A stretch of 63,195 nt of DNA from Methanocalculaceae archaeon (GTDB taxonomy: Archaea > Halobacteriota > Methanomicrobia > Methanomicrobiales > Methanocorpusculaceae), in assembly GCA_031262705.1 (NCBI GenBank), contig JAISHD010000006.1, positions 1 through 63,195 of the forward strand, written 5' to 3'. Each line of letters begins with the position of its first letter. The first letter of the stretch is position 1. The position numbers were made by a program, and so were the translations under genes. Below are positions 924 to 1,150 of this stretch, piece after piece. Under the pieces are notes generated by a model. It was not told the origin of the DNA. It worked only from the letters and a program-made list of their open reading frames with translations, and made no database searches.

Positions 924-950
924 TTCACAATGTGAACTTCACAATGTGAA
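924..950. promoter_or_regulatory. Two tandem palindromic operator-like sites TTCACAATGTGAA (924-936, 938-950)
   Basis: Exact 13-mer palindromes with one central base, placed between tRNA-Cys and its TATA-like box (minus AAATAAATATAAATAGG near 970-985). Confidence 0.75.
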
Positions 951-1135
951 TACAAGATTGTCTTCACTCCTATTTATATTTATTTGGAGTTCCGCCTTTT
1001 TCCGAAATGTTTGGCATGGTCCATGTACCAAATCCCGCAAAACCACGCGGACTCCCGTTGTTCATCATCACCATCCGCACCGGATGAACAGACCTGCGGC
1101 ATGAAAATCTATTTACCTGCAAAAGAAAAATGATT

Positions 1136-1150
1136 ATTCACAGTGTGAAT
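1136..1150. promoter_or_regulatory. Palindromic operator-like site ATTCACAGTGTGAAT
   Basis: Perfect 15-mer palindrome (central G), same half-sites as 924-950, about 24 bp upstream of the metY-like start. Confidence 0.75.

Follow-up and report, generated by a model that had tools for sequence, protein, structure and literature searches.

The tRNA-Cys/metY locus of the window (by which we mean the whole stretch of 63,195 nucleotides analysed) probably lies at the heart of a Methanocorpusculum regulon in which a repressor, acting on shared operators, controls the synthesis of sulfur amino acids and the mobilisation of sulfur; a 107-residue HTH protein would be the most likely repressor. The regulon, the positions of the sites, the operon and the conservation of the HTH gene and of its site were read from sequence, and protein-DNA binding, repression and the effector are inferred. 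An earlier note on this DNA had suggested that a single repressor governs both tRNA-Cys and sulfur amino-acid synthesis; this idea gained support, as sister species keep the sites at both genes with a fixed TATA spacing. Three points go beyond the earlier note: tRNA-Cys heads an operon for tRNA-dependent Cys synthesis, the regulon reaches further, to metX, nifS/iscU, fdhD/ycaO and larE, and a good candidate regulator is encoded elsewhere in the genome.

Operators at the divergent tRNA-Cys and metY promoters

The tRNA-Cys(GCA) gene (minus strand, positions 814 to 886, ARAGORN) has a U73 discriminator at position 815, and its CCA end is not encoded. Divergent from it lies a metY-like gene (plus strand, positions 1174 to 2448) for an O-acetylhomoserine sulfhydrylase of 424 amino acids, which scored 592.8 bits against TIGR01326, above the NCBIfam cut-off. 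Three copies of TTCACA-N-TGTGAA had been described between the two genes, and all three proved exact at the places claimed. Operator 1 of tRNA-Cys, the promoter-proximal one (minus strand, positions 938 to 950, TTCACATTGTGAA), is located at the predicted transcription start, and operator 2 (minus strand, positions 924 to 936) is repeated with a 14-bp period, the tandem reading TTCACAATGTGAA; the TATA-like box TATAAATA is found at positions 971 to 978 of the same strand. On the other side, the metY operator, TTCACAGTGTGAA, is an exact palindrome as described, but it spans positions 1137 to 1149 of the plus strand, the former span of 1136 to 1150 having taken in one flanking base on each side. 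The TATA-like box described for metY at about 1107 to 1114 is likewise present (TCTATTTA, plus strand), one position away, at 1108 to 1115. These boxes begin 28 bp (tRNA-Cys) and 29 bp (metY) from the first base of the operator.

Looking at the sister species, the distance from the predicted TATA box to the site was fixed within each promoter class (the transcription starts are unmapped). It was 27–28 bp in 11 of 13 tRNA-Cys promoters and 28–30 bp for metY in 12 of 13 species (25 bp in the remaining one), 9–11 bp for the HTH gene in 9 of 10 cases and 38–40 bp for nifS in all six, and the differences between classes were near whole helix turns. As for the two tRNA-Cys exceptions, the promoter-proximal copy of G013 carries two mismatches, and in G001 the scorer chose a neighbouring A+T-rich word. 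The 14-bp tandem was found in every sister species but G013, with its one copy at two mismatches. The 3'-most tRNA-Cys site ends 7 to 48 bp before the mature tRNA, and the tRNA leader varies in length by up to about 40 bases between species, with sites and TATA spacing constant.

Because the distance is fixed in each class, the sites fall in the interval from the TATA box to about +15, where archaeal repressors usually bind. Proteins bound there usually block TBP/TFB or polymerase, and activators bind upstream of the BRE. We thus infer from position, in the absence of expression data, that the sites very likely act in repression. They could instead be activator or anti-repressor sites, as position alone gives no sign of regulation; their overlap with the predicted start, or with the bases immediately downstream of the TATA box, makes this improbable. 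A third reading would have the tandem act as RNA, as a leader hairpin of the tRNA-Cys precursor involved in processing or attenuation, since its two copies could pair in the transcript with a stem of about 12 bp. However, the centre bases are mostly non-complementary (T/T, C/C in four, C/A, C/T), being complementary or G-U only in G001, G004, G008, G015 and G017, and no such hairpin is possible for the single copies at metY, nifS, metX and the HTH gene. We ruled out the hairpin for want of covariation at the centre bases and give it almost no credence, and we retain the reading as repressor operators.

Distribution of the operator and extent of the regulon

The assembly that contains the window, of the genus Methanocorpusculum, comprises 1.34 Mb and is 79% complete. 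A search of it for the palindrome, as the earlier note had advised, returned no exact copies other than the three of the window. Four places matched with at most one mismatch. With two mismatches allowed, 29 sites were recovered versus 17 for the control pattern (the palindrome read backwards), and these are mostly chance matches, the HTH site at C75:4879 excepted.

In the genus, 32 exact sites were spread over 14 of the 25 Methanocorpusculum genomes. The context of each was inspected, and every one lies just before one of a few genes: tRNA-Cys (19 sites), metY (8), fdhD/ycaO (3), nifS (1) or the small HTH gene (1). Outside the genus, a single exact site was found among 36 genomes. The tRNA-Cys operator is kept in 13 species, as is that of metY. 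The two genes are on separate contigs in G003, G012 and G014 and well apart in G015, G017 and G021, and in all of these the site is retained at both, which argues for a regulon rather than one conserved stretch. The palindromes are thus conserved among related genomes and not spread over random loci, and none of the refuting outcomes named in the earlier note was seen.

Chance, or passive conservation of flanks among close relatives, had to be considered because our own assembly is incomplete and some of the sister genomes are close. Yet the DNA around the sites has diverged while sites and TATA spacing stayed constant, and the same motif occurs at unlinked genes of one pathway. In addition, only about 0.08 matches would be expected by arithmetic for a random pattern of 12 specified bases in 1.34 Mb, and the backwards control gave 0 in the own assembly. 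Such an origin is therefore extremely unlikely and, as far as genome comparison alone can tell, the regulon is almost certainly real.

To the genes with exact sites we added members whose one-mismatch sites recur between species and are located at gene starts; one-mismatch sites within ORFs (e.g. L061-L064, L069, L072, L075-L078) were treated as chance. Copies with one or two mismatches add metX, iscS/nifS, larE and the HTH gene, the last of which has a site in all module genomes where it was found. The near-exact metX site precedes a homoserine O-acetyltransferase with CBS domains, whose copy in our own genome is at G000:C28:23531. There 96 bp separate the site (L043:1501-1513) from the predicted start, compared with about 60 bp for other species; the true metX start, or the existence of a leader, is therefore uncertain. 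Near-exact sites were also found at nifS/iscS, with iscU next in order, at larE-like genes and at fdhD. Three times an exact site lies between fdhD and a divergent ycaO gene of the McrA-glycine thioamidation family.

At some of these loci (L019:1498-3039, L025 and L036) the FdhD sulfurtransferase, one protein of 513 amino acids, contains the FdhD stretch at least twice. L019 and L025 have one site between the FdhD gene and the divergent YcaO gene, and L036 has three in a row with a 15-bp period. The sequence TTCACACTGTAAA was seen 12 bp before the start of an MFS transporter gene in two related species (L057:1444 and L058:1464), and this transporter is a possible extra member. Beside the operator-bearing tRNA-Cys of G013 (L108/L037) there is a metY remnant (G013:C78:7313-7723) with three internal stops and 39% identity; going by its sequence, metY has decayed in this genome and the tRNA-Cys operators persist.

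A small HTH protein as candidate regulator

The gene for the 107-residue HTH protein was found in 20 of the 25 genomes of the genus, and in our own at G000:C75:4901. Its promoter site, imperfect in most species (TTCACAGCGAGAA in our own genome), precedes the start codon by 21–25 bp in 13 genomes and by 46 bp in G009. The exception is G023, whose assembly is fragmented and slightly contaminated and whose HTH protein is of the second-clade type (see below). When the promoters were scored with a matrix trained on the tRNA-Cys and metY sites only, the HTH promoters having been left out, each exceeded its shuffles with p values of 0.002–0.007. The gene adjoins iscU-nifS in G014, G015, G017 and G021 and directly precedes fdhD in G020. 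In the protein, C6, C90 and C93 never vary and C102 is nearly always kept; a thiol or Fe-S signal is therefore plausible, cluster binding being an inference. Assignment to the XRE/HTH_3 family would rest on a Pfam HTH_3 score of 22.0 bits, slightly below the cut-off of 23. AlphaFold gave only a weak model (pLDDT 68), with helices at residues 32–39 and 43–50, and neither sequence nor fold, given this weak model, led to a useful PDB relative. The open literature that we searched held nothing on this HTH family or on an archaeal tRNA operator.

We think that this protein is probably the regulator, with DNA binding inferred. It could also be that the regulon is real and that its palindrome is bound by a different protein, for which the HTH gene is merely a further target. 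The HTH gene was not detected in G003 and G012, both of which have perfect operators, and more than one regulator gene could be a target, the promoters looked at being limited to those with near-exact sites. Nevertheless, the gaps in G003 and G012 fall at contig ends: in both, the syntenic stretch reaches fdhA and the contig stops there, so that neither absence nor presence of the gene is proven and a true loss was not retained as established. Moreover, the HTH gene is the only DNA-binding gene found with a promoter site at a fixed position, in 14 of 14 genomes tested. For the further HTH gene that came up, which encodes a TFX_C domain, the one-mismatch site is confined to one genome and lies 140 bp off.

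Homologues outside the operator-bearing clade bear on the same question from both sides. The closest relative outside the genus, in Methanoregulaceae archaeon Prado136, is 53% identical. Upstream of its gene is TTCACAATTGTGAA, in which the spacer is 2 bp in place of 1, and larE follows 56 bp downstream; a homologue in another family has thus retained the TTCACA/TGTGAA palindrome and an adjoining sulfur gene, which speaks against a different binder. In that genome (L227:94-2849) the HTH gene comes after homologues of a conserved methanogen cluster that is found at about 5.8–8.5 kb of the window, near tRNA-Cys/metY.

The opposite indication comes from a second Methanocorpusculum clade (G002, G007, G010, G011 and G019), in which neither metY nor an operator-linked tRNA-Cys was found. 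The recognition helix of its HTH proteins, APSAVSQYLSGKRG, is identical to that of the first clade, and no TTCACA site was found upstream of the HTH genes, which favours a different binder. If the HTH protein is the regulator, this motif-free clade means that specificity lies outside the recognition helix or that the operator has drifted. In several second-clade genomes the first-clade operator position, about 22 bp upstream of the HTH start, is occupied by a TAAACANCGTTAA-like sequence that resembles TAAAC(A/G)NCGTTA (L098, L100, L101, L103 and L104). A parallel regulon built on TAAACANCGTTAA was not retained: the exact search gave two autoregulatory sites and scattered single matches. Weighing both sides, we consider a different binder unlikely without dismissing it, and we keep the HTH protein as the candidate repressor.

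tRNA-Cys as a proposed regulated component of cysteine synthesis

On the minus strand of the window, tRNA-Cys is followed by a SepCysSn-like ORF of 59 amino acids (positions 480 to 659), whose location between tRNA-Cys and SepCysS is conserved, and by a second SepCysS paralogue (positions 1 to 483), truncated by the contig end and matched by the NCBIfam models PRK09331 (2.7e-57) and TIGR02539 (3.3e-33). The two ORFs overlap by 4 bases. The earlier note included neither the small ORF (659 to 480) nor the SepCysS start (483 to 1). The profile match of the 59-residue product to MJ1481 (3wks) reached only an E value of 0.79, below significance; its position, which agrees with the description in PMC5424206, and overlap fit SepCysSn. 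The gene order recurs in the sister genomes examined, except in G020, where the ORF scan recovered only SepCysS at the locus. In sister genomes SepCysS is complete and above the TIGR02539 cut-off, and the SepCysS proteins of this locus form their own clade (support 1.000), apart from SepCysS found elsewhere in the same genomes.

The arrangement itself is already known and not new: according to Mukai et al. 2017 (PMC5424206), clade VII SepCysS genes are often beside a tRNA-Cys gene, the N-terminal domain of SepCysE may be encoded by a split gene that precedes SepCysS, and Cys synthesis may in certain conditions be increased by having a second SepCysS. Headed by tRNA-Cys and encoding a SepCysSn-like protein as well as the second SepCysS, the operon would carry tRNA-dependent Cys synthesis. 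In the genus, SepCysS was above cut-off in 23 of 25 genomes, and CysRS in 0 of 25 versus 13 of 14 control genomes. As no CysRS is recognisable, we expect from these searches that Cys is made on tRNA-Cys, as it is in SepRS/SepCysS methanogens (PMC5424206, PMC5688128); the presence of SepRS was not tested.

A different kind of tRNA-Cys gene is linked to rRNA. In all ten such loci scanned, from eight genomes (L123-L128, L130 and L132-L134), tRNA-Cys is located between 23S and 5S rRNA. No site was found within 140 bases upstream of the eight for which upstream DNA was inspected, and their best matrix scores were those of background (p 0.4–0.7). G015 and G017 have three equally matching rRNA-linked copies each; none was found in the search of our own assembly, which is incomplete. 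In G018 and G020 the body of the operator-linked tRNA equals or resembles the rRNA-linked type and the operators are still present, which means that operator and tRNA sequence evolved apart. In G018, G020 and G023, two or three tRNA-Cys genes are arrayed behind or near the operator region (L116, L117 and L119).

We propose that the autoregulated HTH protein most likely binds TTCACA-N-TGTGAA (predicted target TTCACANTGTGAA) as a dimer, for which there are no binding data, and that the bound protein would block initiation at sites that lie downstream of the TATA box, as far as about +15. Under its control would be the tRNA-Cys/SepCysSn/second SepCysS operon, metY and metX, nifS/iscS with iscU, fdhD/ycaO, the larE-like genes and the HTH gene itself. 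The site pair of tRNA-Cys, at 14 bp, may give tighter or cooperative repression. The signal sensed could be cysteine-derived sulfur, perhaps via an Fe-S cluster, an effector that we infer from the cysteines. The tRNA-Cys gene would belong to the regulon because Cys is made on tRNA-Cys in these archaea, the tRNA being a pathway component and not merely a translation adaptor, and the rRNA-operon copies would supply constitutive tRNA-Cys for translation. Only tentatively, as a proposal that may well be wrong, we extend this to a division of labour: the operator-controlled tRNA-Cys would be a dedicated biosynthetic carrier, its transcripts induced with SepCysS2 and SepCysSn to make Cys that feeds the cellular sulfur pool (Fe-S clusters, methionine), and the rRNA-operon tRNA-Cys would serve translation.

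As with the bacterial MetJ, CymR, CysB and IscR, one DNA-binding protein would control sulfur amino-acid synthesis, and IscR also controls isc genes and itself; motif and protein family are different here, and we know of no tRNA gene among the members of those regulons. The small archaeal HTH repressors NrpR, MsvR, TrpY and MDR1-type are likewise autoregulated, with an operator that overlaps the promoter, but their operators (GGTAA-N6-TTACC for NrpR, TTCG-N6-CGAA for MsvR) and targets are others; to our knowledge none controls a tRNA gene. T-box riboswitches also link tRNA charging to amino-acid genes, but they are bacterial RNA elements with the tRNA as sensor, whereas the control proposed here acts on the tRNA gene itself, through an operator in the DNA. 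The clade VII SepCysS loci share with ours tRNA-Cys beside SepCysSn and a second SepCysS; here the operators are shared with metY, metX, nifS, fdhD and larE. We found no regulon described in the consulted parts of PMC5424206, nor any regulator, promoter or operator, and its main text does not mention Methanocorpusculum; the literature searched likewise did not report this operator, regulon or regulator. A repressor-operator regulon is of a known kind; what is new is that the regulated members include a tRNA gene along with the enzyme by which an amino acid is made on it.

How CysRS-less methanogens control the tRNA-based Cys route and its feed into the cell's large demand for sulfur is not clear from the literature consulted. 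The system's hosts include the named strains M. parvum XII and M. petauri MG and the predicted regulator has only 107 residues, which makes the proposal directly testable. The placing of tRNA-Cys under a sulfur amino-acid operator, with a second SepCysS in its operon, points to tRNA supply itself as a possible control point; if the division of labour is true, a tRNA gene would be regulated as an enzyme-like pathway component by its own transcriptional repressor.
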